From: Pseudoxanthomonas spadix
GTDB taxonomy: Bacteria > Pseudomonadota > Gammaproteobacteria > Xanthomonadales > Xanthomonadaceae
Length of the DNA stretch: 64,000 bases
Direction: 5' to 3'
Assembly: GCF_003703395.1 (NCBI RefSeq)
Contig: NZ_RDQN01000005.1
Span: forward strand, 124,001 to 188,000
Position 1 is the stretch's first letter. Every line of letters starts with the position of its first letter. The position numbers and the translations under genes were made by a program. The notes under the pieces are model-generated. The model saw only the letters and a program-made list of their open reading frames with translations, made no database searches and was not told where the DNA came from. This document shows, piece after piece, positions 33,983-50,251 of the stretch.

Positions 33983-34047
33983 CCTACCCAGCAAGGCGGG
34001 ACCTACCCGCCGTGCATGGCGGCCTGGGGCGTGACGAAGGTTAGGTT
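33983..34047 (+). promoter_or_regulatory. CCTACCC direct repeat and -10-like hexamer upstream of TonB receptor 1
   Basis: CCTACCC occurs at 33983-33989 and again at 34002-34008, 19 bp apart start to start. After 33 further bases comes TAGGTT (34042-34047). The second TonB receptor gene has the same arrangement at 45499-45563, with 26 of 30 bases identical across the repeat block. Direct repeats at fixed distance from a -10 are the architecture of MalT-type activator sites, and a MalT-like regulator is encoded at 41041-43800. The rest of the 33799-34157 gap shows nothing else. Confidence 0.65.
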
Positions 34048-34157
34048 TGGGTGAACCGTTGGCCATGTCCACCCAGGACGCCGGTTCAGGGGATCCGGGC
34101 CACTACCTCGCCTCCATCTCACCGCTTGTTTGCTTCGCCTTGCCAGGAGTCCAGCTC

Positions 34158-36941
34158 ATGCGCAGTCGTCCCACCCGCCGTCCACTCGCTCTCGCCGTCG
34201 CCACCTCGCTGCGCCCTTCGTCGGCCGGGCTGCGCAGCCTGTCCTCGGTCCTGCTGCTGGCCACCGCCGCACAACTGGCCCAGGCTGGCGAGACCCCCGC
34301 CGCCGAAATCCCGCCCGCAGAGACGCCAGTCGCCGTCGCTCCGGCCGCCGAGGACCAGGCCAAGACCCTCGATGCGGTCTCGGTGATCTCCACCGGCACC
34401 CGCAAGGCCAACATGGCCGTGTCCGACAGCCCGGCGCCGATCCAGCTGGTCAGCGCCGAACTGCTCAGGAAATCCGCCGCGCCCGACCTGCAGAACGCGA
34501 TCGCCAACCAGGTTCCCTCCTACAACGCGTCCCAGGTCGGCGGCGACATGGCCAGCCAGACCCTGAACGCGGCCCTGCGTGGCCTGACCGCCAACCACAC
34601 CCTGATCCTGGTCAACGGCAAGCGCCGCCACGTCACCTCCAACTTCGGCGTGGCCGGCAACGGCGAAATGGCCACCGACCTGTCCTACATCCCGCAGTCG
34701 GCCATCGACCATGTCGAAGTGCTGACCGATGGCGCCGCGGCGCTGTACGGTTCGGACGCCATCGCCGGGGTGATCAACATCATCCTGAAGAAGGACGCCT
34801 CCGGCGGCGAACTGAACGCCGGCTACGCGGGCTATTCCGATGGCGGCGGCGGCACTGATTCCTGGGGCGCCAACCTCGGCCTGGGCAACGAAACCGGCTT
34901 CGTCAACATCAGCCTGGAGGTCGAGAACCGCAAGTCGGTCTACCGCTTCTCCAATCCCAGCTACGCCAACTGCCTGCTCGACATTGCCGCCTGCCAGGCG
35001 TATGCGACGGCTAACGGCCGCGGCGACCTGCTCAGCCGCATCGCCAACGACCAGGGCGCCATCCTCAACAGCCGCTTCCCGGCGCTCAACGGCTGGCTGA
35101 ACCCACCGCAGGTGCATCGCCAGGCGCTGTTGTTCAATTCCGGCTACAGCTTCGAGAACGGCATCGACTTCTACGCCGTCGGCAGCTATGGCAAGAAGAA
35201 AGCCCAGTCGGAAGAAAACTACCGGCGTCCTTCCCAGGATGGCGGCCACGACTTCAACGGCGACGGCGACGTCAGCGACCCCGGCGAGCACAAGTATCCG
35301 TATGGCTTCAATCCTTCCGAGGCCTCCGAGGAGGAGGACTACGAGCTGACCCTGGGCCTGAAGGGCGACCTCGCCGGCTGGGCGTGGGATGCATCCACGT
35401 CCTACGGCCGCAACGAAATGGACGTCTACACGCTGAACTCAATGAATTTCAGCCTGTGGAACGACTTTGGTGCATCGCCCGAGGACTTCTACGACGGCAC
35501 CTTCTACAGCACGCAGTGGACCACGGACCTGAGCGTGAGCAAGGACTTCGACGTCGGCCTGTCCACACCGCTGTTCTTCAACGCCGGCGTGGAGTACCGG
35601 CGTGATGAATACGGCATCGAACCGGGCGAGCCGGCCTCGTACTACGGCGCCGGCGCCTCGTCCTTCCCTGGCTACAACCCGCTGGGCACCGGTGACTATT
35701 CGCGTCACAACTACGCGGTGTTCGCCGATGTGGTGCTGAATCCGACCGAGAACTGGCTGGTGGACCTGGCCGGCCGCTATGAGGACTACAGCGACTTCGG
35801 CAGCAAGTCGGTCGGCAAGATCACCACCCGCTACGACTTCACCGACACCTTCGCCGTGCGCGGCACCTACAGCACCGGCTTCCGCGCGCCGAACATGGGC
35901 GAGAACTATTACTCGGCCATCCAGGTCAGTCCGGTCGGCGCCACCGCGACCCTGGCCGGGGCCACGGTCGGCAACGGCCTGAAGCCGGAAACCAGCGAAA
36001 ACATCTCCCTGGGACTGGTGTTCAACCCGATCCAGAACCTGACCATGACCCTGGACGCCTACCAGATCAAGATCGAGGACCGTACCTACATCGGCTCCTT
36101 CGCCTACTCCACCGCCCAGGCGGCCGACACGCTGACTGGCCGCACCACCGGCAGCTGGAACGCCGACCTGCCCGATCCGGCCGACACCGATGGCGACGGC
36201 GTCCCGGACGACAGCTACAACCAGATCCTCGGTGACGCGCTGGTGGCTGGTGGCTTCATCAGCGACCCGATGGATCCCAGCGCGCCGGGCGGCAGCTTCG
36301 ACCAGACCGCGCGCGCCAACATCAATATGAGCTTCTTCAGCAACGTGCTGGACACCAAGAGCACCGGCGTGGACCTGGTGACAAACTACATGAGCGAGTT
36401 CGCCTGGGGCTCGATCGACTGGCTGCTGGCGGCCAACTACAACGAGACCGAGGTCACCCGCGCCGGCCGCGCGCCGGGCTTCGAGACCATCCCGCTGTTC
36501 ACCGCCGCCAACGTCTCCGACATCGAGCACAACAGCCCCAAGTACCGCGTCAACCTGGCCGCCACCGTCAACTGGGACAAGTTCAGCCTGACCTTGCGCG
36601 AGTCCATCTACGGGCCGCAGTACACCGTGGCCAGCCTGAGCGGCTATGAGCAGTTTGCCGACCAGCTGGACACGGTCACCCTCGACGGCGGCGCCTATTA
36701 CAAGCAGGAGATCGGCACGATGGCGTTGACCGGCTTCGACCTGAGCTTCAAGCCCAATGACGCCTGGACCCTGGCCGTGGGTGGCGACAATATCTTCAAC
36801 GAATACCCGGACAAGATCCCCTCGCCGGTGTGGGATTACGACGTGGCCAACTACCAGAACGGCAACAACGAGTATCTGACCGGCAGCCCGGTCGGCTACT
36901 TCGGCGCCCGCTACTACGCCAAGCTGACCTACCGCTTCTGA
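34158..36941 (+). CDS. TonB-dependent outer membrane receptor 1
   Basis: A 927-residue TonB-dependent receptor that takes up a substrate through the outer membrane using ExbBD-TonB energy. After a long signal region (LRSLSSVLLLATAAQLAQAGE) and an Ala/Pro linker come the plug domain (DAVSVISTGTRKAN, then LILVNGKRRHVTSNFG, IDHVEVLTDGAAALYGSDAIAGVINIILKK) and a 22-strand barrel ending YFGARYYAKLTYRF. A Ca-binding-like DTDGDGVPDDS loop is at about residue 680. I chose the ATG at 34158 (RBS AGGAG at 34145) over an earlier frame start. It leads the amine oxidase gene cluster. Its substrate is unknown. Confidence 0.92.
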   Translation: MRSRPTRRPLALAVATSLRPSSAGLRSLSSVLLLATAAQLAQAGETPAAEIPPAETPVAVAPAAEDQAKTLDAVSVISTGTRKANMAVSDSPAPIQLVSAELLRKSAAPDLQNAIANQVPSYNASQVGGDMASQTLNAALRGLTANHTLILVNGKRRHVTSNFGVAGNGEMATDLSYIPQSAIDHVEVLTDGAAALYGSDAIAGVINIILKKDASGGELNAGYAGYSDGGGGTDSWGANLGLGNETGFVNISLEVENRKSVYRFSNPSYANCLLDIAACQAYATANGRGDLLSRIANDQGAILNSRFPALNGWLNPPQVHRQALLFNSGYSFENGIDFYAVGSYGKKKAQSEENYRRPSQDGGHDFNGDGDVSDPGEHKYPYGFNPSEASEEEDYELTLGLKGDLAGWAWDASTSYGRNEMDVYTLNSMNFSLWNDFGASPEDFYDGTFYSTQWTTDLSVSKDFDVGLSTPLFFNAGVEYRRDEYGIEPGEPASYYGAGASSFPGYNPLGTGDYSRHNYAVFADVVLNPTENWLVDLAGRYEDYSDFGSKSVGKITTRYDFTDTFAVRGTYSTGFRAPNMGENYYSAIQVSPVGATATLAGATVGNGLKPETSENISLGLVFNPIQNLTMTLDAYQIKIEDRTYIGSFAYSTAQAADTLTGRTTGSWNADLPDPADTDGDGVPDDSYNQILGDALVAGGFISDPMDPSAPGGSFDQTARANINMSFFSNVLDTKSTGVDLVTNYMSEFAWGSIDWLLAANYNETEVTRAGRAPGFETIPLFTAANVSDIEHNSPKYRVNLAATVNWDKFSLTLRESIYGPQYTVASLSGYEQFADQLDTVTLDGGAYYKQEIGTMALTGFDLSFKPNDAWTLAVGGDNIFNEYPDKIPSPVWDYDVANYQNGNNEYLTGSPVGYFGARYYAKLTYRF

Positions 36942-36949
36942 TCGATCCG

Positions 36950-36983
36950 GCGCCGGCTCGCGGGCCGCGCCGGCGCGCTTTCC
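36950..36983 (+). terminator. Attenuator-like hairpin after TonB receptor 1
   Basis: GCGCCGGC (36950-36957) pairs with GCCGGCGC (36969-36976) around an 11-nt loop, followed by GCTTTCC. It lies in the 141-bp gap before the amine oxidase gene and could lower expression of the downstream enzymes relative to the receptor. Confidence 0.45.
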
Positions 36984-37082
36984 TCAAGCTCAAGGTGCTT
37001 CGGTTGCGGTGGACGGTCAGGGCGCCGTCCGCCGCATTTTTCCGCCCCCGCACCGGCATCCATCACAAGGCAATCAAACGCA

Positions 37083-38693
37083 ATGCAAGACCGTGTCCGA
37101 AGTGGAATGAGTCGTCGCCAGCTGTTGGGCCGCATCGGCCTGGCCGCAGGTGGCACGATGATGTACCAGGCCATGACCAGCCTGGGGTTTGCCGCCGAAT
37201 CCGGCTACAAGGGGCCCGTGCGGCTGGAGGGCAGTCCCAGGGGCGCCAGCGTGCTGGTGCTGGGCGCGGGCCTGGCCGGCATGACCACCGCCTTCGAGCT
37301 GCGCAAGGCCGGCTACCAGGTCAGGATCCTCGAATACAACGCACGTCCGGGCGGGCGCAACTGGACCCTGCGCGGCGGTGATACCTATACCGAGCTGGGC
37401 GGCCAAACCCAGCACTGCGGCTTCGACGAAGGGCTCTACATCAATCCGGGCCCGTGGCGGATCCCGCACCACCACCGCGCGGTGCTGGCCTACTGCAAGC
37501 AGTTCAACGTGCCGCTGGAATCGTTCGTGCAGGTCAACTACAACGCCTTCCTGCACAACACCGAGGCCTTCGGCGGCAAGCCGCAGCGCTTCCGCGAGAT
37601 CGATGCCGACTACAAGGGCCAGGTGTCCGAGCTGCTGGCCAAGGCCACCGCGCAGGGTGCGCTGGACCAGCAGGTGACCAAGCAGGACCAGGAGCTGCTG
37701 CTGGAATCGCTGCGCAGCTGGGGCGCGCTGGACCGCAACATGGCCTACGTGGCGGGCGATGACAGCAACCTGCGCCGCGGCTATGCCAAATACCCCGGCG
37801 GCGGCCTCGGTGGCAAGCCGGAGCTGTCGACGCCGCTGTCGCTGGAGGACGTGCTGCGCTCGCGCCTGTGGAAGCAGCTGGCGGCCGGCACCAACATCGA
37901 AATGCAGACCAGCATGTTCCAGCCGGTGGGCGGCATGGACCAGCTCGGCAAGGCGTTCGCGCGCGCGCTGGGCCCGGGCGTGATCCAGTACAACGCCAGG
38001 GTCACCGGCATCGACCAGGACGAGCACGGCGTCACCGTGACCTACGAAGACACCGGTGCGCCGGGCAGCACCCACACGGCCACCGCCGACTGGTGCGTAT
38101 GCACGATCCCGTTCTCGGTGCTCAGCCGCATCCCGGTCAAGGTCGGCCCGGCCATGGCCGATGCGATCACCAAGCTGCCCTATGCCTCCTCGGTGAAAGT
38201 GGGGCTGCAGTTCAAGCGCCGCTTCTGGGAAGAGGATGAGGCCATCTACGGCGGCATCAGCTACACCAACCTGCCGATCAGCAACATCAGCTATCCCAGC
38301 ACCGGCTTCCATGCGCCGGGCAAGGGCGTGCTGCTGGGCGCCTATGTCTGGGGCCTGGATGCATTCGACTTCACCTCGCACAGCCCGGCCGAACGTGTGC
38401 GCCGCACGGTGGCCTATGGCAGCCAGATCCACCCGCAGTACCCGAAGGAATTCGACAACGGCATCTCGGTGGCCTGGCACCGGGTGCCGGGCAATCACGG
38501 TTGCTTTGGCACCTGGACCGAGGACCTGCGCGCCCAGCACTACCAGGCGGCCTGCCAGATCGACGGCCGCATCGCCATGGCCGGCGAGCACATTTCCTAC
38601 ATCCCGGCCTGGCAGGAGGGCGCGGTCCTGTCCGCGCACGATGTCATCGGCCGCCTGCATGCCAAGGTGATGGCCACCGGAGGCCGCGCATGA
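37083..38693 (+). CDS. Tat-exported flavin amine oxidase (L-amino acid/monoamine oxidase family)
   Basis: A 536-residue FAD-dependent amine oxidase predicted to be folded in the cytoplasm and exported by Tat. The Tat motif is SRRQLLGRIGLAAGG near the N-terminus. The FAD site is VLVLGAGLAGMTTAFELRKAG with EYNARPGGRNWTL, and the C-terminal FAD contact is IAMAGEHISYIPAWQEGAVLSAHDVI. The reaction is oxidative deamination of an amine or amino acid to an imine plus reduced flavin. Its stop overlaps the cytochrome c start (ATGA), suggesting the cytochrome is its electron acceptor rather than oxygen. A second start at 37107, nearer the twin arginine, is possible. Confidence 0.9.
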   Translation: MQDRVRSGMSRRQLLGRIGLAAGGTMMYQAMTSLGFAAESGYKGPVRLEGSPRGASVLVLGAGLAGMTTAFELRKAGYQVRILEYNARPGGRNWTLRGGDTYTELGGQTQHCGFDEGLYINPGPWRIPHHHRAVLAYCKQFNVPLESFVQVNYNAFLHNTEAFGGKPQRFREIDADYKGQVSELLAKATAQGALDQQVTKQDQELLLESLRSWGALDRNMAYVAGDDSNLRRGYAKYPGGGLGGKPELSTPLSLEDVLRSRLWKQLAAGTNIEMQTSMFQPVGGMDQLGKAFARALGPGVIQYNARVTGIDQDEHGVTVTYEDTGAPGSTHTATADWCVCTIPFSVLSRIPVKVGPAMADAITKLPYASSVKVGLQFKRRFWEEDEAIYGGISYTNLPISNISYPSTGFHAPGKGVLLGAYVWGLDAFDFTSHSPAERVRRTVAYGSQIHPQYPKEFDNGISVAWHRVPGNHGCFGTWTEDLRAQHYQAACQIDGRIAMAGEHISYIPAWQEGAVLSAHDVIGRLHAKVMATGGRA

Positions 38694-39133
38694 ACGCCCG
38701 TGTCCTGATCGTGGTCGCGCTGGCGAGCGCGCTGCTGGCCGGGCCGGCCTGGCTGGCCGCGCCGGTGCGCGCGCAGAGCTCCGATGCCACCGGCCTGGCC
38801 AACACCCGCGACTTCGCGCAGGCCGACGGCGCCCAGGTCTATGCCACCATCTGTGCCGGTTGCCACATGCCTGACGGCCAGGGTGCGCGCGGTGCGGGCG
38901 AATATCCCGCGCTGGCCGCCAACCCCAAGCTGGCCGCCGCGCCCTACGTGGAGATGATGGTGCTGTCGGGCAACGGCGCGATGCCCGGTTTTGCTGGCAT
39001 GCTCAGCGATCGTCAGGTGGCCGAAGTGACCACGTATGTCCGCACCCACTTCGGCAACCGGTACGACGATGTGGTGACCGAGCAGGACGTCAAGGCCCTG
39101 CGCGCCTCGCTGGCCACCGCATCCGCAGATTGA
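38690..39133 (+). CDS. Periplasmic c-type cytochrome
   Basis: A 147-residue monohaem cytochrome c with a Sec signal (cut near VRAQ) and the haem motif CAGCH (Cys55, Cys58, His59). The likely axial Met is in NGAMPGFAGMLSDRQVAEVTTYVRTHFGN, the normal class I C-terminal pattern. It overlaps the amine oxidase gene by 4 bp and is probably its dedicated electron acceptor, passing electrons to the respiratory chain. The two would form a dehydrogenase pair that avoids hydrogen peroxide. Confidence 0.92.
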   Translation: MNARVLIVVALASALLAGPAWLAAPVRAQSSDATGLANTRDFAQADGAQVYATICAGCHMPDGQGARGAGEYPALAANPKLAAAPYVEMMVLSGNGAMPGFAGMLSDRQVAEVTTYVRTHFGNRYDDVVTEQDVKALRASLATASAD

Positions 39134-39172
39134 GCTGTGCCTTCTTCCATTACCTTTCTTTACGGAGTTCCC

Positions 39173-39676
39173 ATGGCCCTGTCCCGTTCCCTGCGTCTCC
39201 CACTGCTGACCGCCCTGCTGCTGCCGCTGGCTGCCCAGGCCGCCGATGTGGTGCGCGTGCCGATTCCCGGCAGCGATTTTCCGATTGCCGCGGCGGTGGA
39301 AGTACCGGCCGGCAAGGCCACCATCTACCTCAGCGGCAAGGTGCCGGCAGTGACCAATCCTGCGGCGCCCAAGGATTCGGTGGAAGCCTTTGGCGACATG
39401 AAGACCCAGACCATCAGCGTGCTCACCCAGATCCAGAAGCAGCTGGAAGGCATGGGCCTGGGGATGAAGGACGTGGTCAAGATGCAGGCCTTCCTGGTCG
39501 GCGGCCCGGAGACCAGCGGCAAGATGGATTTCAAGGGCTTCATGGAGGGCTACACCCAGTTCTTCGGCAAGGACGCCAAGCAGATGAACCTGCCGGCGCG
39601 CTCGGCCTTCCAGATCGCCGCGCTGGGCAATCCGGGCATGCGCATCGAGATCGAAGTGATCGCCGTGCGTCCCTGA
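39173..39676 (+). CDS. RidA/YjgF family protein with signal peptide
   Basis: A 167-residue member of the RidA (YjgF/YER057c/UK114) family of imine/enamine deaminases. Unusually it has a Sec signal (LRLPLLTALLLPLAAQA, cut before ADVVRV), so it should act in the periplasm. The core shows ATIYLSGKVPAV, DMKTQTISVLTQIQKQLEGMGLGMKDVVKMQAFLVG and the ending LGNPGMRIEIEVIAV with the conserved Arg. CGGAG precedes the ATG at 39173. Hydrolysing the imine made by the neighbouring amine oxidase is the natural inference. Confidence 0.9.
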   Translation: MALSRSLRLPLLTALLLPLAAQAADVVRVPIPGSDFPIAAAVEVPAGKATIYLSGKVPAVTNPAAPKDSVEAFGDMKTQTISVLTQIQKQLEGMGLGMKDVVKMQAFLVGGPETSGKMDFKGFMEGYTQFFGKDAKQMNLPARSAFQIAALGNPGMRIEIEVIAVRP

Positions 39677-39706
39677 TCGATCCCTTTCCCGTACCGGAGT
39701 CGTCCG

Positions 39707-40933
39707 ATGAACATGCCCTTCTCCCGTCGCCAGTTCCTGCGCAATTCCGCCCTTGCCGCCGGCGCCAGCGTCGGCGCCCCGCTGCTGGCCCTGCCCGGCG
39801 CAGCCCTGGCCCAGCGTGCCGGCCCGGCGCGCCTTGCGGTGGACCCTGACGCCGCCGCCGCACTGGGCCTGGCGCCGGTGATGATCAACGCCAACGAAAA
39901 TCCGCTCGGTCCCAGCGAGGCCGCGCTGAAGGCGATCAACGGCATCGCCCCGCAGGGCGGGCGCTACCTGGGTGAGCTGGCGCAGGAACTGGTCCAGGAA
40001 CTGGCCACCCAGCTGGGCCTCAAGCCCGAGCACATCGTGCCCTACGTCGGTTCCACCCCGCCGCTGCAGTACACGGTGATGGCCTTCACCTCACCCAGTG
40101 CCTCGCTGGTCACCGCCGACCCCACGTTCGAAGCCGGCTGGCGGGTGGCCGAGTCGACCAAGGCGCCGGTCCACAAGATCCCGCTGCGCGCCGACTACAG
40201 CCATGACGTGCAGGCCATGTGCGCAGCCGATGCCGGCGCCGGCATGCTCTACCTGTGCAATCCCAACAACCCGACCGGTTCGATCACCACCCGCAAGGAC
40301 ATCGAGTACGCGCTGGCGCACAAGCCCAAGGGCAGCATCCTGGTGCTGGACGAGGCCTACATCCACCTCTCGCCGAGCGCGGTCAGCGGCGTGGACCTGG
40401 TTGCGGCGGGCCAGGACGTGGTGGTCCTGCGCACCTTCTCCAAGCTCTACGGCATGGCCGGCATCCGCCTGGGCTATGCCGCCGCGCGTCCGGACCTGCT
40501 CAAGAAGATGACCTATTTCGGCATCAATGCGCTGCCGGTGACAGCCATGGCCGCCGGCCTTGCCAGCCTGCGCGATCCGCAGCTGGTGCCCACCCGCCAG
40601 CGCACCAACGCCGTGCTGCGCGACGAGGTCACCGCCTGGCTGACCGCGCAGGGCCATGCGTGCACGACCTCGGAGAGCAACTGCTTCATGGTCGATGTCA
40701 AGCGCCCGGCACCGGAGTTCATGCAGGCCATGGCGACCTACGGGGTGTTCGTCGGTCGCGCCTGGCCGGTGTGGCCGACCTGGTCGCGCATCACCGTTGG
40801 CACCGCGCCGGAAATGGCACGTTTCAAGGACGCTTTCGCCAAGGTGATGGCCGGCCAGCGCGGCCCGCTGCCGGTCAAGACCGCGATGCTGCAGGACGAA
40901 CGCCGCGACGGCAGTGTGACCGCCTACGCCTGA
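39707..40933 (+). CDS. Tat-exported PLP aminotransferase (class I/II, HisC-like)
   Basis: A 408-residue fold-type-I aminotransferase with an N-terminal twin-arginine signal (FSRRQFLRNSALAAGASVG, cut near ALAQ). Class I/II features are INANENPLGPSEAAL, YLCNPNNPTG, VLDEAYIHL and RTFSKLYGMAGIRLGYAAA with the PLP lysine at about residue 246. It resembles histidinol-phosphate aminotransferases, but Tat export with bound PLP makes a biosynthetic role unlikely. It follows ridA by 30 bp and closes the oxidase cluster. A GTAG repeat pair separates it from the convergent regulator gene. Confidence 0.9.
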   Translation: MNMPFSRRQFLRNSALAAGASVGAPLLALPGAALAQRAGPARLAVDPDAAAALGLAPVMINANENPLGPSEAALKAINGIAPQGGRYLGELAQELVQELATQLGLKPEHIVPYVGSTPPLQYTVMAFTSPSASLVTADPTFEAGWRVAESTKAPVHKIPLRADYSHDVQAMCAADAGAGMLYLCNPNNPTGSITTRKDIEYALAHKPKGSILVLDEAYIHLSPSAVSGVDLVAAGQDVVVLRTFSKLYGMAGIRLGYAAARPDLLKKMTYFGINALPVTAMAAGLASLRDPQLVPTRQRTNAVLRDEVTAWLTAQGHACTTSESNCFMVDVKRPAPEFMQAMATYGVFVGRAWPVWPTWSRITVGTAPEMARFKDAFAKVMAGQRGPLPVKTAMLQDERRDGSVTAYA

Positions 40934-41040: not shown

Positions 41041-43800
41041 TCATGCCGGTGGCCTGGCCGCGGCGATCAGGCCGCGCTGCAGGGCAATGCCAAGCGCGGC
41101 CTCGCGGGTGCTCGCTTCCAGCTTGCGGTAGAGGTTCTTGAGATGGAACTTGACCGTATTTTCCGACACCGCCAGACGCCGGGCGATCTGCTTGTTGGAA
41201 TGGCCCAGGGCCAGCTCGGCCAGCACTTCCAGCTCGCGTTCGCTGAACAGTTCGGTGACCAGTGCCTGTTCACAGGACAGCTTGTCCAGCAGGGTCTGGA
41301 TGGTCAGCGCCCGGGTGGTGCCGGCGGCGGCCTGCGGGTCCAGCTGACGCGCACTGCGCAGCAGCGCCTTGACCGGCAAGCCCACTTCCAGCGCCACCTG
41401 CCAGGCGCGGGTCCCGGCGATGTGGTCCAGCGCCGCGCGCAGCGGCGGCAGCATCGATTCCATCTGCCCACGCTGCTGCAGGGTCAGGGCCAGTCGCAGC
41501 TGCACGCGGCCCAGGTGGTACTGGTCGCCGGCCGCTTCGGCGGCCTGCTGCTGCTTGCGCAGGATCGCCAGCGCCTGGCCCGCGCGTCCGGCCTGGGCGT
41601 GCCAGCGCGCCAGGACAAAGCCCAGCGCATGGGCCTGGCGCCAGCCGTGGCCACTGGCCAGGGCGTGGTCGAATGCGGCTTCGCCGCCGCAGCGGGCGAT
41701 CATCGCGTCGGTGGCGTGGCTGCCGGGCAGGTCCAGCAGCAGGTCCAGGCGCCAGGCGGCGGCCAGCTCGGCCAGGCGGACCAGGTGCCGGCGCGCGGCC
41801 AGGGCATCGATGCGGGCCAGCAGCGCGTGCGCCGAACGCCCGCTGCGGTCGCGCTGGCGGGCCAGGGTCAGCGCGGTGGCGTAGCCGGCCACGTAGGCAT
41901 CGACCCAGCCGTCGCCGCGTTCCAGGGTGTCCAGTGCACCGTCGAGCAGGTCGGAAGCTTCGTCGTAGCGGCCGTGCTCGGCCTGCAACTGGGCCAGCAG
42001 GCAGCGGCAGGCAGCGACCAGCGTGGCATCGGCGGCATCTGCGCAATGGGCCAGTTGCAGGGCGCGGCGGTAGCTCGCTTCGGCCTGGTCCAGGGCGCCG
42101 CGGTAGAACTGGCCCTGGCCCAGGTGGACCAGGGCATAACCCACAGTGGCCGGGGTCTGGCTGCGGGTCATGACCTCGGCAGCGTCCTGCGCCAGCGCCT
42201 GGGCGGCGGGGAAGTCGCCACGGCCCAGCGCCGTGGTCGCGCAGATGCACAGCAGCGTGCCGCGGCCCAGGTGGTCGTCCTCATCCAGTGCCCGCGCCTG
42301 CGCCGACAGCTGGGCGATGCCGCGCGCGTTGCCGCAGATCTGGTCCAGCAGGCCGCGCAGCAGCGCCACCACCACCACGTAGTCGCGTTCCAGCGGCGCG
42401 CGCTGGCTTTCCGGGAAATCGCGGAAGCGCTCCAGCAGCGTCTGGGCATGGCTGAACTCGCCCAGGCGCATGTGCAGGTAGGCCTGGGTCAGGTTGAGCG
42501 CCGGCGTGTCACGCACCAGGCGCGGATCGAACTGGCGCAGCAGCGCGGCCACCGAGGCGGTGCCGTGCCGCAGCAGCATCTGCCAGCTGCCAGCCTGGCC
42601 GATGCAGTCGGCCGCCAGCGGCACATCGTGCGCGGCCAGTGCGTGGCGCACCGCTTCGGGCAGGTGACCGTGCTCGGCGCACCAGCGCGCCGCGCGCTGG
42701 TGCAGGCCGCCGACCAGGCCGGGCGACTGGCGATCAAGCTGCTGATGCAGGAACTCGGCGAACAACGGGTGGTAGCGAAACCATTCCTGGTCATCGTCCA
42801 GCGGCACCAGCAGGCCATGGAAGTGGCCCAGGCCGGCCAGCAGCTGGCCGCTGTCCCGGCGCTGGCGCACCGCATCGGCCAGGGCCGCGTTGAAGCGCTC
42901 CAGTACCGCGGTCTCCAGCAGGAACGCGCGCAGCGCCGGGGCCAGGTCGCTGACCACCTGTTCGGCCAGATAGGCGGCCAGTCCGGCGGTGCGTCCGGAA
43001 AACCGGGCCACGTCCTCGCTGCGGCGCCCATCGCCGGAGATCCACAGCGCCGCCAGGCGCACGGCCACCGGCCAGCCTTCGGTCTTTTCGCGCAGGCGGC
43101 GGGCGTCGTGCTGCGAAGAGGTCGCGCCCAGCACGGCCTGGGTTTCGCCGCTGTCCAGCGCCAGCTGCGTGGCGTCCACGCGCTGCAGCGCACCGTGCAC
43201 GTCCAGGCGCGCCAGTGGCAGTGCCGGTGCGCGGCGGGTGGCCACCAGCACGTGCAGCAGCGGGCCGCCGTGTTCGACCAGCAGGGTGATGATTTCGTCG
43301 GCGGCCGGGCAGGCGGCGCGGTCGTAGTCGTCCAGGATCAGCACCAGCGGCTGCTGCGCGCAGCGGACCGCGCGCAGCAGTGCGGTGCGGGTGGTGGCGG
43401 TGTCCAGTTCGCGCCAGTGGGCCAGGCCCAGCGGCAAGGTGCTGTTGTCGAAGGCGCCCAGTCCCAGCGTCAGCGCCAGGTAGGCGAGCAGGCGCGCCGG
43501 TTCGGCATCGCCCTCGTCCAGCGACAGCCAGGCGACCTGGGCCTGGCCGGTCGCCAGCAGGTGCGCGTGCCACTGCGCCAGCAGGGTGGTCTTGCCGAAG
43601 CCCGGTGGCGCCAGCAGCAGGGTCAGCGGCAGGGCGATGCCGGCATCGAGGGTCTCGAGCAGGCGCGCGCGCGATACCGCGTCCACGTGCAGGCGCGGCG
43701 GCTCGAGCTTGTCCGGCAGGATCCAGTCCGCCGCGATGGCCCCTTCGCGCAGGGCGAGGGGACGCGGTCCGATCAGTGCGACGGGTTTTGCAGCAGGCAC
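41041..43800 (-). CDS. MalT-like LuxR-family ATP-dependent regulator (LAL)
   Basis: A large STAND-ATPase transcriptional activator of the MalT/LAL type, 919 residues from the GTG at 43800. The N-terminal NTPase has Walker A LLAPPGFGKTTLLAQW and Walker B PLVLILDDYDRA. A long TPR-like helical sensor region follows, and a C-terminal LuxR HTH (LSERELEVLAELALGHSNKQIARRLAVSENTVKFHLKNLYRKL). The frame is open to a TTG at 43863, but GGAG precedes the GTG at the right distance, so I chose it. It is convergent to the amine oxidase cluster and is the best candidate to bind the CCTACCC repeats before both TonB receptor genes. Confidence 0.9.
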   Translation of the reverse strand: MPAAKPVALIGPRPLALREGAIAADWILPDKLEPPRLHVDAVSRARLLETLDAGIALPLTLLLAPPGFGKTTLLAQWHAHLLATGQAQVAWLSLDEGDAEPARLLAYLALTLGLGAFDNSTLPLGLAHWRELDTATTRTALLRAVRCAQQPLVLILDDYDRAACPAADEIITLLVEHGGPLLHVLVATRRAPALPLARLDVHGALQRVDATQLALDSGETQAVLGATSSQHDARRLREKTEGWPVAVRLAALWISGDGRRSEDVARFSGRTAGLAAYLAEQVVSDLAPALRAFLLETAVLERFNAALADAVRQRRDSGQLLAGLGHFHGLLVPLDDDQEWFRYHPLFAEFLHQQLDRQSPGLVGGLHQRAARWCAEHGHLPEAVRHALAAHDVPLAADCIGQAGSWQMLLRHGTASVAALLRQFDPRLVRDTPALNLTQAYLHMRLGEFSHAQTLLERFRDFPESQRAPLERDYVVVVALLRGLLDQICGNARGIAQLSAQARALDEDDHLGRGTLLCICATTALGRGDFPAAQALAQDAAEVMTRSQTPATVGYALVHLGQGQFYRGALDQAEASYRRALQLAHCADAADATLVAACRCLLAQLQAEHGRYDEASDLLDGALDTLERGDGWVDAYVAGYATALTLARQRDRSGRSAHALLARIDALAARRHLVRLAELAAAWRLDLLLDLPGSHATDAMIARCGGEAAFDHALASGHGWRQAHALGFVLARWHAQAGRAGQALAILRKQQQAAEAAGDQYHLGRVQLRLALTLQQRGQMESMLPPLRAALDHIAGTRAWQVALEVGLPVKALLRSARQLDPQAAAGTTRALTIQTLLDKLSCEQALVTELFSERELEVLAELALGHSNKQIARRLAVSENTVKFHLKNLYRKLEASTREAALGIALQRGLIAAARPPA

Positions 43801-43820
43801 GTGCGTCTCCGCTGACGGGC

Positions 43821-43841
43821 CGATCTTCTCGAAGAAGATCG
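43821..43841. promoter_or_regulatory. 21-bp palindrome in the LAL regulator leader
   Basis: CGATCTTCT and AGAAGATCG are perfect 9-bp inverted arms around CGA, 21-41 bp before the regulator's GTG start. It could be an operator or an mRNA hairpin. If the upstream TTG were the start, it would lie inside the coding frame. Confidence 0.6.
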
Positions 43842-44009
43842 AGCCAGGACGTCGAGCACGCAAGCCAGTGCGCCATCAGGCGCCGCGCCGCTCGGATGCT
43901 GTGACAGGGCCCCCGCCCATACCTGTCCCTAGGTACCTGACCGTTACGTTATGTCACCAAGCGGTCACTTGCCAAGCCCGTGCCATGTGACCGGTCGCGC
44001 CGCGCCGGG

Positions 44010-45296
44010 TCAGGCGATGGCCAGGAACGCCGCGCGTGCTGCCTCCAAGGTCGCCGCAATGACCGTTTCATCATGTGAACTGGAGGTAAATCCGGCCTCG
44101 TAGGCCGACGGCGCCAGGAACACCCCGCGCTCGAGCATGGCGTGGAAGAACCGGTTGAACGCGGCCGTGTCGCAGGCGGTGGCCTGGGCGTAGGTCTCCA
44201 CCTTCTGGTCGGTGAAGAACAGGCCGAACATCCCCCCCACCTGGTTGGTGGTGAGCGCCACGCCGGCCTGGGCCGCAGCCGCTTCCAGCCCGGCGCACAG
44301 GCTGGCCGTGGCAGCGGTGAGGCGCGCGTGGAAGCCCGGCGCCTGGACCAGCTCCAGCATTGCCAGGCCGGCGGCCATGGCCACCGGATTGCCCGACAGG
44401 GTGCCGGCCTGGTAGATCGGCCCGGCCGGGGCGATCTGGCGCATCAGCTCGGCGCGGCCGCCATAGGCACCCACCGGCATGCCGCCGCCGATGATCTTGC
44501 CGAAGGTGGTCAGGTCCGGGGTGATCCCGTAGTGCGCCTGCGCCCCCCCAAGCGCGACCCGGAAGCCGGTCATCACCTCATCGAAGATCAGCACGGCGCC
44601 ATGCTGGCTGCACAGCGCGCGCAGGTGCTGCAGGTAGCCTGCCCGCGGCGGGATGCAGTTGGCGTTGCCGACCACCGGCTCGATGATGACCGCGGCGATC
44701 TCGCGACCGATCTCATCGAACAGTGCCGTGGCGCCGTCGAAGTCGTTGTAGCTCAGGGTGGCGGTCAGCGCGCTCAGGCCCGCGGGCACGCCCGGCGAGG
44801 TCGGCACGCCCAGGGTCAGCATGCCGCTGCCGGCCTTGACCAGGAACGAATCGCCGTGGCCGTGGTAGCAGCCTTCGAACTTGACGATGCGCTGGCGCCC
44901 GGTGGCCCCGCGCGCCAGGCGGATCGCCGAGAGGGTGGCCTCGGTGCCGGAGTTGACCATGCGCACCATCTGGCAGGACGGCACCAGGCCGGTGATGGTT
45001 TCGGCCATGGTGACCTCGGCCGGGCAGGGCGCGCCGAAGGACAGCCCGTCGCCGATTGCCCTGGCCACCGCTTCGCGCACGTGCGGATGGTTGTGGCCGA
45101 CGATCATCGGCCCCCACGAGCCCACGTAGTCGATGTAGCGGTTGCCGTCCACGTCGAACAGATACGCCCCATCGGCGCGCTGGACGAAGAACGGCTCGCC
45201 GCCCACCGACTTGAACGCGCGCACCGGCGAGTTGACCCCGCCGGGGATCAGCGCCTGGGCGCGGGCGAAAAGGTCGTGGGAGCGGGCGTGCTGCAT
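44010..45296 (-). CDS. hemL: Glutamate-1-semialdehyde 2,1-aminomutase
   Basis: HemL converts glutamate-1-semialdehyde to 5-aminolevulinate, the tetrapyrrole precursor, using PLP. The 428-residue protein is full length with [22 protein letters not shown], the [16 protein letters not shown] segment, [33 protein letters not shown] and [19 protein letters not shown] with the PLP Lys267. It lies between the LAL regulator and TonB receptor 2, but it is a housekeeping gene and shows no link to them. It is divergent from receptor 2. Confidence 0.97.
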
Positions 45297-45498: not shown

Positions 45499-45563
45499 CC
45501 TACCCATCCAGCCGGGACCTACCCGTCGAAAGGCTGTCGCCGATCCTGCCCGTTCCCTAGCAT
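45499..45563 (+). promoter_or_regulatory. CCTACCC direct repeat and -10-like hexamer upstream of TonB receptor 2
   Basis: CCTACCC at 45499-45505 and 45518-45524 (19 bp apart), then 33 bases, then TAGCAT at 45558-45563. Spacing is identical to the element before TonB receptor 1, and 26 of 30 bases of the repeat block agree (GGGACCTACCCG is shared exactly). The 414-bp hemL-receptor gap also holds the inverted repeat CGTCGTT-N11-AACGACG at 45644-45668, in the predicted leader. Confidence 0.65.
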
Positions 45564-45710: not shown

Positions 45711-48700
45711 ATGAATCGACTGATCCGCAGGAGCGCCTTGGCGCTTGCCTTGACGGTGGCCATCAGCGCCGCCCACGCCCAGTCCACCACGGGCCGGATC
45801 TTCGGCACCGTCAGCGGCGCCGGCGATGCCGACACGGTACTGGTCGAAAGCAGCAGCGGCTTCTCGCGCGAGGTCAAGGTCGAAGGCGGTCGTTATTCGC
45901 TCAGCAGCCTGCCGCTGGGCACCTACACGGTCACCCTCAAGCATGACGGCGCCGTGGTGGATACCCGCGATGGGGTATCGATCCTGGTCGGTGCCGGCAC
46001 CGAGGTGGGGCTGTCGGCCGATGGCGCCACCACCCTGGGCGCGGTGGCGGTCAAGGGCACACGGATGATCTCGCCGATCGACGTCAGCAGCGTCGACACC
46101 CGCACCGTCATCACCTCCGAACAGCTGCAGCAGCTGCCGCTCGGCCGCAGCGCCGAGGCCATCGCACTGCTGGCACCGGGCGTGGTGGTCAACAGCGGAG
46201 GTTTCGACAACGGCCCGCTGGGCGGCTCGCTGCCCAGCTTCGGTGGTTCGGCCGCCTCGGAAAACGCCTATTACCTCAACGGCTTCAACACCACCAACAC
46301 GCAGAACAACCTCGGCGGCCTGACCCTGCCGTACGGTGCCATCGACCAGCAGGAAATCTTCACCGGCGGCTACGGCGCGCAATACGGCCGCTCCAATGGC
46401 GGGGTGATCAACCAGGTGGGCAAGCGCGGCACCAATGACTGGAAGTTCGGTGCCGCGGTGGTGTTCGAGCCCAACGCGCTCAAGGCCGACCAGAAGGACA
46501 TCTACTGGCGTCCGGACAGCCAGACCTCCACGACCAGCAACACCGCCTACAACTACGCACGCGCGGCAAATGGCCTCTACCAGCCACTGAGCGAGACCAA
46601 GGCCACCTCGGAGACCTACAGCGCCTATGTGGGCGGCCCGATCCTCAAGGACAGGCTGTTCTTCTTCCTGGCCGGCGAGCGGGTGAACTCGCACGGCACC
46701 CGCATTGCCAGCAACCGCGACGCGGACAATGGCAATTCCGGCGGCCTGACCGAGTACGACTACGAGCAGAACCGCTGGTACGGCAAGCTGGACTGGTATA
46801 TCACCGACGACCACCTGCTCGAGTTCACCGGCGCCAGCGACGAGTACGAGACCGGCGGCATCATCTACCGCTACGACTACGTCAATCGCGAGAAGGGGGC
46901 CTATTACACCAACGAGAACATCAACGAGGCCGGTCCGACCCTGTACTCGGCCAAGTACACCGGCTATTTCGGCGACAACGTCACCGTCAACGCGTTGTAC
47001 GGCGAAATGAAGACGCCGGACGAGATCAGCTACTACAACTACGATCCGGCCAACGGGCCGATGATCAACAACATCGCGCTGCAGAACCCGGCCTACAACG
47101 GCGGCACGCCGATTGCCGGCGCGCAGAGGCAGGCGTCGATCACCGCCTCGGACCGCGAGTACGAAAAACGCAACCTGCGCCTGAGCCTGGAGTGGCGTAT
47201 CGGCGACCACGCGATCACCGCCGGTATCGACAACCAGAAGCTCGAGGCCACCAACATCGGCTCGCAGGCCTCGGGCCCGGGGTACGCGTGGAGCTACGAC
47301 AGGACCGACGATCCGTACGGTCTGAACACCGGCGGCCTGATCAGCCAGTCGGCCAACGAGGCCGGTGGCGTCGGCGCGCCCAGTCCGGCCCTGGTCGATC
47401 CGATCTACGGGAGCTCGGGCTACTACGTGACCAAGAACACCAGCATCGGCCTGAACTCCTATGACGCCGACCAGAAGGCCTACTACCTGGAAGACAAGTG
47501 GCAGGTCACTCCCAACCTGCTGCTGAGCCTGGGCCTGCGCAAGGACGAGTTCACCAACTACGTCCCGATCAGCCATGAGCCATACATCGACGTCGATGCC
47601 TGGTCGCCACGTGTCGGCTTCAGCTGGGACGTGCACGGAGACTCGACCCTGAAGGTCTTCGGCAATGTGGGCCGCTATTATCTCGGCCTGCCGCTGTCGG
47701 CCGTGGGCCTGTTCACCTCCTCGGTGTCCAAGAGCGAATACTTCACCTACAGCGGCATCAATGCCGACGGCACGCCGGTCATTTCGCAATCGCTGGGTCC
47801 GGCGGTGTCGGCCAACTCGCGCTTCGGCCGTGCCTCGGACCCCAGCGCCGCGGTGGTCGATGACATCAAGGGCGAGAACCAGGATGAAGTGATTCTCGGC
47901 TTCACCCAGCAACTGGACAGCGGCTGGGTGTACGGCGTGCGGGCGACCTATCGCCGCCTCAACGATGCCATCGACGACCAGAACTTCGACACCAGCAACG
48001 TCGGCCTGGCCAATTCCGCCGCCGCCCAGGGCGTGGACATCGACTGGACCCGCACTGCGGGCGCCGAGTTGATCAACCCAGGCAAGACCAACGTCTGGAA
48101 TGTCTACGACACCGCCGGCAACCTGCGTCAGGTCGCCGTGACCCGCGAGGCGGCAGGTTTCCCCGAACTCAAGCGTGACTATGGCGCGCTGGAGTTCAAC
48201 TTCGAGCGCCCCTTCGACGGCAAGTGGTATGCCAAGTTCAACTACGTCTGGTCACACAGCTACGGCACCACCGAAGGTCAGTTGCGTTCGGACCTGTTCC
48301 GCAGCGGCGGTGCCCTGGGCAGTTATCAGGGCCAGGCCGCAGTCTCCACCACGCAGAGTTGGGACCATGCTGCGCTGATGGAAAACACCAACGGCGACCA
48401 GTCCAATGATCACCGCCACCAGATCAAGTTCTATGGCTACTACCAAGTGGACGATGAGTTTGGTGTGTCGGCCAACCTCAGCATGACTTCCGGCTCGCCC
48501 AAGAACTGCCTGGGCAACTATTACGGAACGGCCTACAGCGGCACCGATCCGGCTGGTTACGGCGGCAGTGCGGTGACAGGCGGCCCGTACCACTACTGCT
48601 ACAACCCGCAAACCGGTACCGGCGACCCCTCCCCTCCAGGCTCCCACGGCCGCATGCCGTGGATCAACCAGCTCGATCTGGGTCTAATCTGGAAGCCGCT

Positions 48701-48881
48701 GTTCGCCGATGGAAAGCTGGCAGTGAGCTTCAACGTGTTCAACGTCCTGGACGCCCAGAAGCCGACCACGGCCTATCCGTTCTCGCAGCTGCCGGACGGG
48801 TCGCAGAACCCGCTCTACGGCCAGGCCGTGGTCTATCAGACCCCGCGCTATGGTCGCCTGTCGGTTTCCTACGACTGGTAA
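45711..48881 (+). CDS. TonB-dependent outer membrane receptor 2 (Oar-like, with carboxypeptidase-regulatory-like domain)
   Basis: A 1056-residue Oar-type TonB receptor. After a signal peptide (cut after AHA, before QSTTGRIFG) comes a carboxypeptidase-regulatory-like beta-sandwich (about 25-110: GTVSGAGDADTVLVESSSGFSREV, YSLSSLPLGTYTVTL). The plug follows (DTRTVITSEQLQQLPLGRSAEAIALLAPGVV, GYGAQYGRSNGGVINQVGKRG), then a barrel ending TPRYGRLSVSYDW. Oar-like receptors are abundant in xanthomonads and often import peptides or large ligands. The ATG at 45711 starts the signal peptide, with GGGGAA before it. A terminator-like hairpin separates it from the dipeptidase gene. Confidence 0.93.
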   Translation: MNRLIRRSALALALTVAISAAHAQSTTGRIFGTVSGAGDADTVLVESSSGFSREVKVEGGRYSLSSLPLGTYTVTLKHDGAVVDTRDGVSILVGAGTEVGLSADGATTLGAVAVKGTRMISPIDVSSVDTRTVITSEQLQQLPLGRSAEAIALLAPGVVVNSGGFDNGPLGGSLPSFGGSAASENAYYLNGFNTTNTQNNLGGLTLPYGAIDQQEIFTGGYGAQYGRSNGGVINQVGKRGTNDWKFGAAVVFEPNALKADQKDIYWRPDSQTSTTSNTAYNYARAANGLYQPLSETKATSETYSAYVGGPILKDRLFFFLAGERVNSHGTRIASNRDADNGNSGGLTEYDYEQNRWYGKLDWYITDDHLLEFTGASDEYETGGIIYRYDYVNREKGAYYTNENINEAGPTLYSAKYTGYFGDNVTVNALYGEMKTPDEISYYNYDPANGPMINNIALQNPAYNGGTPIAGAQRQASITASDREYEKRNLRLSLEWRIGDHAITAGIDNQKLEATNIGSQASGPGYAWSYDRTDDPYGLNTGGLISQSANEAGGVGAPSPALVDPIYGSSGYYVTKNTSIGLNSYDADQKAYYLEDKWQVTPNLLLSLGLRKDEFTNYVPISHEPYIDVDAWSPRVGFSWDVHGDSTLKVFGNVGRYYLGLPLSAVGLFTSSVSKSEYFTYSGINADGTPVISQSLGPAVSANSRFGRASDPSAAVVDDIKGENQDEVILGFTQQLDSGWVYGVRATYRRLNDAIDDQNFDTSNVGLANSAAAQGVDIDWTRTAGAELINPGKTNVWNVYDTAGNLRQVAVTREAAGFPELKRDYGALEFNFERPFDGKWYAKFNYVWSHSYGTTEGQLRSDLFRSGGALGSYQGQAAVSTTQSWDHAALMENTNGDQSNDHRHQIKFYGYYQVDDEFGVSANLSMTSGSPKNCLGNYYGTAYSGTDPAGYGGSAVTGGPYHYCYNPQTGTGDPSPPGSHGRMPWINQLDLGLIWKPLFADGKLAVSFNVFNVLDAQKPTTAYPFSQLPDGSQNPLYGQAVVYQTPRYGRLSVSYDW

Positions 48882-48949
48882 GTCAAGGACCAGTGCTGCC
48901 CTGGCGGTGCGGCAGGGCAGGTGGCATGGCAACATTGGCGTCCATTGCA

Positions 48950-48975
48950 GGCGTCGTCTCGCGGCGACGCCTTTT
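48950..48975 (+). terminator. Terminator or attenuator between TonB receptor 2 and dipeptidase
   Basis: GGCGTCG (48950-48956) and CGACGCC (48965-48971) form a 7-bp stem with an 8-nt loop, directly followed by TTTTGTT. It lies 69 bp after the receptor stop and just before the dipeptidase ribosome-binding site, so it likely reduces read-through. Confidence 0.75.
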
Positions 48976-48994
48976 GTTCGATCAGGAGAAGGAA

Positions 48995-50251
48995 ATGAAC
49001 ACCAAGACACTGATGGCCGCGTTGCTGCTGATCGCCGCCGTCGCCGTCGATGCGCACGCCAGGGAGGTGGTGGTCACCGACAAGGCCCGGGCCCTGCAGG
49101 CGCGGGCGATCAACCTGGACACCCACCTGGACACGCCGGCCCTGTTCGGCCAGCTGGGCTGGAAGATCACCGACCGTCACAGCTACGCCGCCGACGGCAG
49201 CCAGATCGACTACCCGCGCATGGTCGAAGGCGGGCTTGATGGCGGGTTCTGGGTGGTCTACACCGGCCAGGGGCCGCTGGACGCGATGGGCAAGCTGAAG
49301 GCGCGCGACTTCGGCCTCAAGCGCCTGGGCCAGATCCGCGAGATGGTCGCGGCCAACCCGGACAAGTTTGCGCTGGCCACCGTCGCCGGCGATGCCGCGC
49401 GGATCAAGGCCGAGGGCAGGAAGTCGGTCTACATCAGCATGGAGAACGCCTATCCGCTCTCGCACGATCCCAGCCTGCTCAGTTACTACTACAAGGCCGG
49501 GCTGCGCATGCTCTCGCTGGTGCATGGCAGCCACAACGATTTCGCCGATTCGTCGGGTATTGCCGAAGGCACGGTCGGCGAGCACGGCGGGCTGACCGAA
49601 AAGGGCCGGCAACTGATCATCGAGGCCAACAGGCTGGGCATCATCGTCGACCACTCGCATGCCTCGCCCGAGGTGTTCGACCAGATGATCGCCCTGTCCA
49701 AGGCGCCGATCATCCTCTCGCACAGCGGCGCCTATGACGTCTATGCGCATCCGCGCAACCTGGACGACAAGCGGCTCAAGGTACTGGCCGCGCATGGCGG
49801 GGTGATCCAGGTCAATTCGCTGGGCAATTATCTGGTGGACACCGGCGGCACGCCGGAATACCGGGCCGAACTGGGCAAGCTCTACCGGTCCTTTGGCGGG
49901 CGCGGCGAAATGAGCGCGCAGGAACGCAGGCAGGCCATGGCCCAGGTCGAGGCGCTGAACACCAAGTACAAGATCAGGAAAGCCACCTTCGACGATTATC
50001 TCAGGCACCTGCTGCACATCCTCGAGGTCGCCGGCTGGCAGCACGTCGGCCTGGGCGCGGACTGGGATGGCGGTGGCGGCGTAGTCGGCTACGAAGACAT
50101 CACCGCCTTGCCCAAGGTGGTGCAGGCGCTGCTGGACGCCGGCTACAACGAGCAGCAGATCACCGCGGTGCTGGGCGGCAACACCCTGCGCCTGATCGAG
50201 CAGGTGCAGGCGCTGGCCGACCCTGCGGCAGTCAAGGCCGCGCTGGAATAG
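48995..50251 (+). CDS. Secreted membrane-dipeptidase-family (M19) peptidase
   Basis: A 418-residue zinc dipeptidase of family M19 (renal dipeptidase type), exported by a Sec signal ([22 protein letters not shown]). Metal-site features are [13 protein letters not shown] (HxD), [11 protein letters not shown] (bridging Glu), [30 protein letters not shown] and [19 protein letters not shown], followed by [11 protein letters not shown] and the ending [16 protein letters not shown]19 enzymes hydrolyse dipeptides, including those with D-residues. AGGAGAAGG precedes the ATG. Co-location with an Oar-like receptor suggests imported peptides as substrates. Confidence 0.93.

Follow-up and report, generated by a model that had tools for sequence, protein, structure and literature searches.

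What links the genes that flank hemL in Pseudoxanthomonas spadix, and what might they do together? The stretch analyzed here (the window) comprises 64,000 nucleotides of contig NZ_RDQN01000005.1 (positions 124,001 to 188,000 of the forward strand), in a genome of 3.37 Mb. On one side of hemL, it encodes a TonB-dependent receptor (receptor 1), an FAD-dependent oxidase, a cytochrome c, a RidA protein, a pyridoxal phosphate (PLP)-dependent aminotransferase, and a MalT-like regulator of the LAL type; on the other side are genes for an Oar-like TonB-dependent receptor and an M19 family dipeptidase. The initial annotation had interpreted them as a pathway for uptake, cleavage, and oxidative deamination of peptides or amino acids outside the cytoplasm. 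Open reading frame (ORF) calls combined with Pfam and NCBIfam profile searches confirmed every gene that it named, in the place given, with predicted Tat- or Sec-type leaders on the exported proteins. Its core inference is sound, but the core of the gene set is not new; the new result is a regulatory link, a direct repeat found in front of both receptor genes. On balance, the data favor the view that this locus is the core of an LAL-activated regulon for scavenging organic nitrogen, which would act outside the cytoplasm.

A direct repeat in front of both receptor genes and distant operons

Alignment of the regions 5′ of receptor 1 and of the Oar-like receptor across related genomes uncovered the direct repeat CCTACCC-N12-CCTACCC. 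In the window, operator 1 (positions 33983 to 34008, plus strand) is an exact match that is conserved in relatives and lies ~150 bp 5′ of the start of receptor 1 (34158 to 36941, plus strand; Pfam domains Plug and TonB_dep_Rec_b-barrel). Its first base is the very position at which the initial annotation had begun the locus, with no mention of a repeat. Operator 2 (45499 to 45524, plus strand), also exact, lies 5′ of the Oar-like receptor gene (approximately 45711 to 48881, plus strand; OMP_b-brl_4 and Plug). The entire genome has no other exact copy. Throughout, the reversed pattern, counted at the same looseness, served as the control. Allowing two mismatches yielded seven additional genomic matches (nine with the exact pair) versus 35 for the reversed pattern, so those seven carry no meaning. 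Nine exact copies were counted among 41 relatives; they come from five genomes, and their coordinates place all of them at the main locus. The reversed pattern gave a single copy. The repeat is not visible 5′ of the Oar-like gene in L122, a locus without the LAL gene. We judge the direct repeat to be almost certainly a genuine operator.

The geometry of this element was derived from an alignment of 82 unique sites with an exact first box and at most one mismatch in the second; many of them come from closely related Xanthomonas, and a few are probably chance matches. The second box is directly followed by G (frequency of 0.76), any base, C (0.88), and G (0.85), and a −10-like TATGNT element is found 33 bases past the second box, with frequencies of 0.83 for T, 0.89 for A, and 0.85 for the final T. 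Its putative counterparts in the window are TAGGTT (34042 to 34047, plus strand) and TAGCAT (45558 to 45563, plus strand), each located 33 bp past the second box. The box centers fall roughly 49 and 68 bp 5′ of the predicted transcription starts and are arranged as for an activator, which suggests activation rather than repression. A sigma-70 consensus scan of the region returned 0 promoters versus 1.4 in shuffled sequences, so the −10-like element is read from the cross-site alignment only. Terminator-like hairpins were predicted in the gap between receptor 1 and the oxidase (37005 to 37036, plus strand; a possible attenuator) and in that between the Oar-like receptor and the dipeptidase (48949 to 48972, plus strand). 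In the relatives, 13 of the 36 unique gaps between receptor and oxidase genes contain a similar hairpin, and so do 5 of the 6 unique gaps between Oar and M19 genes, there with a T tail. Since the hairpin total for the region is no higher than that in shuffled sequences (8 versus 7.8), the single hairpin in the receptor 1/oxidase gap is weak evidence; such hairpins may set the ratio of receptor to enzyme or separate transcription units. No Rfam family matched between 30 and 54 kb of the window.

Exact copies of the operator are found in 11 of 119 genomes of the family, with a total of 29 sites, versus one site for the reversed pattern; 21 of these are at the main locus, and the other 8 precede genes for transport or for the metabolism of nitrogen compounds. 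Three of the latter belong to genome G041, where they are located before a Tat-type aminotransferase (53%), a receptor 1 homologue, and a Tat-type FAD oxidoreductase (C23); before a receptor, a DUF4953 metalloprotease, an M19 homologue (50%), and the beginning of yet another Tat-type aminotransferase (C39); and before a receptor and a protein with an M20 dimerization domain (C40). X. massiliensis (G092) has no aminotransferase gene at its main locus; its Tat-type aminotransferase (52%) is instead encoded under an exact site elsewhere (C5), together with a nucleoside hydrolase; ureide-type genes, among them that for OHCU decarboxylase, lie at a greater distance from this site. Two more sites in this genome precede a receptor and two gamma-glutamyltranspeptidases (C6) and a penicillin-type acylase and a receptor-like protein (C7). 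The remaining sites lie before an amino acid permease encoded with the ethanolamine ammonia-lyase subunits EutB and EutC (G082, C22) and before a receptor-like protein (G069, C244). These receptors were recognized by BLAST comparison with receptor 1, those on G092 C7 and in G069 by eye.

With one mismatch allowed, 12 LAL-bearing genomes contain 17 sites, of which 7 are at the main locus; the neighbors of 14 of the 17 were checked. Away from that locus, one site each precedes a second oxidase (G041), a second Tat-type aminotransferase (G015), a receptor 1 homologue (G015), an acylase (G010), and a receptor 1 homologue with a Tat-type oxidoreductase (G092), and two are found next to unrelated genes (L199 and L200). 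Because all matches in these 12 genomes number 43, not exceeding the 45 of the reversed control, off-locus one-mismatch sites count by position only, and exact copies alone are taken as evidence outside the main locus. In L038 and L149, an inexact operator-like site is located 5′ of a second oxidase, in a second oxidase-cytochrome c locus that adjoins genes for a chorismatase-like protein, an AMP-binding enzyme, and an S9 peptidase.

It is the makeup of this wider target list, nitrogen-compound genes, that points to organic nitrogen as the purpose of the regulon. Instead of feeding the cell with nitrogen, the predicted exported oxidase could also generate 2-oxo acids that act as products or signals, e.g., indole-3-pyruvate and hence auxin from tryptophan, a role put forward for this gene trio in Gluconacetobacter diazotrophicus. 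According to the available text of one paper (PMC5053998), lao transposon mutants of that species lose indole-acetic acid, and many of the hosts belong, by name, to plant-associated genera. However, an operator that marks genes for a dipeptidase, gamma-glutamyltranspeptidase, acylase, ethanolamine ammonia-lyase, and ureide metabolism fits nutrition better, which makes a product or signal role unlikely.

The LAL regulator and its co-occurrence with the repeat

The probable binder of this operator is encoded at positions 41041 to 43863 of the minus strand, with the 5′ end of the gene at about 43800 to 43863. Its product matches the GerE and TPR_MalT domains above the Pfam cutoffs and AAA_16 and AAA_22 below them, and its residues 48 to 436 align with the MalT structure 8BOB (E value of 1e-42). 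It falls short of the NCBIfam MalT equivalog cutoff (304.7 versus 537 bits), and its identification as MalT was therefore rejected. Its build is that of an LAL regulator: a MalT-type N-terminal ATPase region, a TPR region, and a C-terminal LuxR-type helix-turn-helix. The predicted recognition helix, SENT-V/I-KFHLKN, is retained in 38 aligned LAL genes, including the one in L141 with just 42% overall identity.

The main test of co-occurrence covered the 119 family genomes, with LAL matched over its length; its counts are raw and uncorrected for relatedness. The 11 genomes with exact operators are exactly those with an LAL match of at least 56% identity over its length, and none of the other 108 has such a site. 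One of these 11 matches (G092) shows an internal stop; the same gene is called as 912 amino acids in L045. LAL matches without an exact site were seen in G057 (42%, altered spacer), G099 (33%), and G131 (a fragment). The contrast extends to single genera: the operator is present in G000 but not in G011, G013, G102, and G130 (genus g1), in G046, G097, and G150 but not in G124 (g20), and in G056, G103, and G156 but not in G131 (g30).

A comparison of 119 loci gave a similar picture, with a site of no more than two mismatches in 37 of 38 loci with LAL versus 10 of 81 without it (5 of 38 and 11 of 81, respectively, for the reversed pattern). The 38 LAL loci include the window itself (L040) and three genomes that were counted twice (L041, L042, and L043, which are the same as L032, L034, and L035); the 38th, L141, has both boxes 5′ of its receptor with a 10-base spacer. 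Among the LAL-less loci, the site lies 5′ of relevant genes in L055 and L057 (both with a degraded LAL), L038 and L149 (second oxidase), and L148 (second Tat-type aminotransferase) and away from such genes in L039, L093, L101, L109, and L143. In an order-level sample of 151 genomes, searched with G added to the pattern, seven sites were found in four genomes, all known LAL carriers, and none in the remaining 147; the reversed pattern gave five sites in two genomes. Genome-wide LAL status was measured within the 119-genome sample. From this co-occurrence, LAL is very probably the protein that binds the direct repeats.

The LAL gene is found in 29 of 32 Xanthomonadaceae loci, the exceptions being L055 and L057, with only gene pieces, and L068, an 8-kb contig. 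It is reduced to pieces in X. bromi and X. axonopodis, and some copies of the oxidase or Oar gene matched with stop codons in frame (these observations concern L055, L057, G131, G103, G156, and G069); in certain lineages, the system thus appears to be decaying.

The hemL gene that separates the two halves (44010 to 45296, minus strand, by profile assignment) was rejected as a member, since it is found in 38 of 41 relatives (E values up to 1e-150) whether or not they carry the block. The LAL gene travels with the oxidase independently of hemL: in G006, the order is rearranged to receptor end, aminotransferase, LAL, oxidase, cytochrome c, RidA, azurin, and hemL, and in G057, the receptor, oxidase, cytochrome c, RidA, and LAL genes fall within a 19-kb stretch without hemL. 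There are 17 congeners without the oxidase, and the hemL region was compared in 16 of them (G003 had no hemL match). None of the 16 has the oxidase, cytochrome c, RidA, aminotransferase, or LAL gene next to hemL, and 15 have none of the genes of the block on either flank, as far as the contigs reach (in two, L121 and L129, the oxidase side of hemL is covered for only ~2.5 kb before the contig ends). Given this pattern and the shared operator, the idea that the Oar-M19 pair is a chance neighbor across hemL was rejected. Both halves carry an operator that co-occurs with LAL, and they are thus best interpreted as a single regulon, probably activated by LAL; the proposed MalT-like control and the inclusion of the Oar-M19 pair, both put forward in the initial annotation, gain strong indirect support.

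Could the repeat belong to another regulator, with the LAL gene a mere passenger? Common descent can produce co-occurrence, LAL and the operators are in part co-inherited within clades, and three LAL-bearing congeners (G004, G006, and G017) have no exact copy; the copies in the corresponding positions deviate by one or two mismatches. However, a passenger role sits poorly with 11 of 11 versus 0 of 108 genomes and with the contrasts inside single genera. The recognition helix is conserved along with LAL and differs in the LAL paralogue of G099 (30% identical), a genome without operators. Even where the locus is rearranged, in L037 and L141, the LAL gene remains next to that of the oxidase, and a direct repeat is a fitting site for a LuxR-type regulator such as MalT. 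A passenger role for LAL is accordingly improbable.

The partial co-inheritance and the three congeners also weigh against the single-regulon interpretation as such, and so do several other observations. Inexact matches are no more common genome-wide than the reversed control (9 versus 35 and 43 versus 45). The oxidase gene in the window has no operator directly 5′ and is preceded by a terminator-like hairpin; relatives L035/L043, L045, L048, and L085 do have the operator in that position. One oxidase-less congener (genome G024, locus L122) keeps the Oar-M19 pair next to hemL without LAL. In the 119 family genomes, the oxidase (E values up to 1e-180) is found in 15 and a close Oar homologue (at least 57%) in 13, with both in 11; an Oar homologue is present without the oxidase in G011 and G130, and the oxidase without a close Oar in G057, G069 (contig end), G080, and G081. 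Comparison with PDB gave no assignable substrate for the receptors, the Oar-like one having no PDB match at 0.01, and a clear twin-arginine motif was not seen in some Xanthomonas aminotransferases.

Predicted enzymes and a possible pathway outside the cytoplasm

Among the best 80 of 141 confirmed GTDB loci, compared by tblastn, a cytochrome c gene follows that of the oxidase in 79 and a RidA gene is present in 64; some of the misses coincide with the end of a contig. Of the 32 loci from Xanthomonadaceae (L041 to L069, L073, L081, and L085), 31 have the aminotransferase; none of the other 48 does. The oxidase-cytochrome c-RidA trio recurs across Proteobacteria. By this comparison, the gene set is more than a chance grouping, and the four enzyme genes are kept together in relatives, which supports the initial annotation.

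The oxidase (37083 to 38693, plus strand; Pfam Amino_oxidase, E value of 1e-57) carries the Tat-type motif SRRQLL near its N terminus. Its best PDB match is the L-amino acid oxidase (LAAO) 2JAE (E value of 9e-90), and its closest named relative is from Pseudoxanthomonas sp. GM95 (86%). R126 aligns with the Arg of the GATRIP stretch of 2JAE, which we take to be the residue that binds the substrate carboxylate, and is invariant in 83 of 83 sequences, the window included, as are K372, Y404, and W510. The mean pLDDT of the AlphaFold model is 66.7. A relaxed twin-arginine motif (RR or KR) is present in 78 of 80 homologues (53 of 80 with a stricter pattern). The initial annotation had called this protein an amine oxidase, and the FAD amine oxidase domain is indeed there; by sequence, the protein groups more narrowly with L-amino acid oxidases, and a general amine oxidase identity was rejected on account of these nearest relatives.

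The cytochrome c gene (38690 to 39133, plus strand) overlaps the stop codon of the oxidase gene with its ATG, as ATGA, and encodes a predicted exported monoheme protein (Pfam Cytochrome_CBB3) with a single CAGCH heme motif. The CXXCH motif and M98 are invariant in 71 of 71 sequences, and the PDB relatives include the cytochrome subunits of alcohol and fructose dehydrogenases. A hydrophobic leader was detected, by a lenient test, in 75 of 75 cytochromes and 63 of 63 RidA proteins; together with the Tat motifs, this suggests that the proposed export signals are retained. The flavoenzyme is probably an L-amino acid:cytochrome c dehydrogenase. It could be a true oxidase that makes hydrogen peroxide, as its nearest solved relatives are named oxidases, with the cytochrome c serving respiration or peroxide defense. 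That seems improbable next to a cytochrome c gene that is adjacent in 79 of 80 loci and to the kinetics of related flavoenzymes, for which a Tat signal with an adjacent Sec-type cytochrome c predicted cytochrome-using dehydrogenases (available text of PMC12224317).

Two further groups of potential redox proteins were observed. A Tat-signal FAD oxidoreductase of the DAO family (Pfam assignment on L189), encoded on G041 C23 (L189, 1286 to 2473) and G092 C7 (L196, 4612 to 5799), sits 3′ of a receptor 1 homologue under the same CCTACCC operator and may be a second exported amino acid dehydrogenase. A gene for an azurin-type copper protein, which may act as an additional carrier of electrons, is placed between those for the aminotransferase and LAL in the Xanthomonas-type loci whose gene order was compared (e.g., L046, 14077 to 14451, with the Pfam assignment made there); its cluster covers 30 of the 80 GTDB loci plus L035 and L037. 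In the rearranged L037, it is 3′ of RidA; none was called in the window.

The RidA protein, a putative imine deaminase (39173 to 39676, plus strand; Pfam Ribonuc_L-PSP), has a Sec-type leader and is predicted to be exported. Its closest PDB structures are the Rid3 proteins PSPTO3006 and PFL1385. The catalytic Arg (R143) is kept in 67 of 67 sequences, and 61 of them have the Ile (I38) in place of Tyr, with a gap in the other six; a retained Arg and a Tyr-to-Ile replacement mark the Rid3 subfamily, according to the available text of PMC4433059. Several other genes are found around the oxidase and RidA in relatives: 3′ of RidA (e.g., L084, 12652 to 14867), an M20 peptidase with a leader-like start (a cluster in 24 loci), which makes a third peptidase family beside the oxidase after M19 in the window and S9 in L149, and an aspartate dehydrogenase (17 loci), with a BPD_transp_1 permease nearby in 11 loci; and just 5′ of the oxidase, in the loci whose gene order was compared, a protein of ~250 amino acids without a Pfam match (L092, 9133 to 9882; its cluster covers 19 loci). 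The record L072, labeled Mycobacterium sp. KBS0706, has the oxidase (67%), cytochrome c, and RidA arranged like those in Inquilinus loci; its name may be wrong.

The PLP-dependent aminotransferase (39707 to 40933, plus strand; Pfam Aminotran_1_2) has the Tat-type motif SRRQFLR and belongs to the NCBIfam subfamily NF006580 (537.7 bits against a cutoff of 444). Identification as PtaA was rejected, as the score of 409.9 bits is below the equivalog cutoff of 500. K246, D215, and R361 are invariant in 32 sequences. The twin-arginine motif was found in 25 of 29 homologues in one scan and 23 of 29 in another; of the six misses in the latter, five are gene calls of no more than 350 residues that possibly lost the N terminus, and L057 has SRS for SRR. 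The M19 dipeptidase (48995 to 50251, plus strand; Pfam Peptidase_M19) has a leader and is predicted to be exported; its best PDB match is the dipeptidase 2RAG. In another interpretation, the last two enzymes would modify a siderophore or some other secreted peptide, much like PtaA and the M19 family protein PvdM in the case of pyoverdine. This notion draws on the PtaA profile score of ~410 bits and on the presence among the M19 relatives of 3B40, which we take to be PvdM, and is very unlikely, given the PtaA score below the cutoff, the far greater distance of 3B40 than of 2RAG, and the absence of a large peptide synthetase between 28 and 56 kb, where no called gene exceeds 1,041 codons.

For the organic-nitrogen regulon, these parts would combine as follows. 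LAL, together with an inducer, would activate the gene sets on both sides of hemL through the CCTACCC repeats. The receptors would carry peptides or amino compounds over the outer membrane, and the M19 dipeptidase would free amino acids. Oxidation of L-amino acids by the Tat-type flavoenzyme would yield imino acids, with the co-encoded cytochrome c instead of oxygen as the electron acceptor, and hydrolysis of these by the exported Rid3 protein would produce 2-oxo acids and ammonia. The Tat-type aminotransferase might shift amino groups from other donors onto 2-oxo acids and so broaden the range of compounds that can be deaminated.

Such transdeamination outside the cytoplasm is a tentative proposal, as is its extension, equally tentative, in which members of the Xanthomonadaceae would have a dedicated CCTACCC-N12-CCTACCC LAL regulon that assembles it and to which satellite operons add nitrogen sources. 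Exported aminotransferases would gather amino groups onto shared 2-oxo acids, the cytochrome c-linked dehydrogenase and Rid3 would free ammonia while electrons enter the respiratory chain, and the satellite operons might supply nitrogen from peptides, gamma-glutamyl compounds, acyl amides, purines, and ethanolamine. If this enzymology is right, amino acids would be deaminated before they enter the cytoplasm, with a gain of respiratory electrons, and the oxidase-cytochrome-RidA trio, as well as exported aminotransferases outside the pyoverdine producers, would acquire a physiological setting. The two-box operator predicts members at the locus and elsewhere and thus turns a suggestive neighborhood into a testable regulon.

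Comparison with known systems

The initial annotation knew of no described system with this exact set. Its core has been published: a lao-cccA-ridA cluster was described in 2016 in G. diazotrophicus, with the same three families in the same order and a predicted Tat oxidase, and the layout was also reported in Caulobacter and Xanthomonas (PMC5053998). That trio was tied to auxin; compared by description, the available text of that paper does not mention the aminotransferase, LAL, receptors, dipeptidase, or operator. A Fur box 5′ of a nuo-lao gene set in G. diazotrophicus is described in the available text of another paper (PMC9368920). Pairs of a Tat flavoenzyme and an adjacent Sec-type cytochrome c, arranged as here, were shown in 2025 to behave kinetically as cytochrome-using dehydrogenases, as far as the available text goes (PMC12224317). 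That NicA2/CycN/Pnao set came from a search with NicA2, whereas the enzyme in the window has L-amino acid oxidases as its nearest relatives and is accompanied by a Rid protein.

As for the other components, a 2015 paper reported that RidA genes, and in some cases Rid3 genes, cluster with those of FAD amine oxidases (available text of PMC4433059), and the Rid3 proteins PFL_1385 and PSPTO_3006, which have the same conserved Arg and Ile, remove imines produced by an L-amino acid oxidase (available text of PMC5619798). The Rid3 protein of the window differs from these in its association with a cytochrome c and with an operator. PtaA, a Tat-exported periplasmic PLP transaminase according to the available part of a review (PMC6206403), is related by profile score to the aminotransferase described here, which is below its cutoff and is encoded in an amino acid oxidation operon rather than among pyoverdine genes.

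Within the available open-access literature, we found no paper that describes this regulon or LAL control of nutrient capture of this sort. The regulator shares with MalT and other LAL proteins the N-terminal type, the TPR region, and the LuxR-type DNA-binding end; it differs from MalT in its score below the cutoff and in its presumed targets, nitrogen-compound genes with a different repeat. LAL regulators are common, and control by one of them over this kind of nutrient capture would be new to the open-access literature searched.

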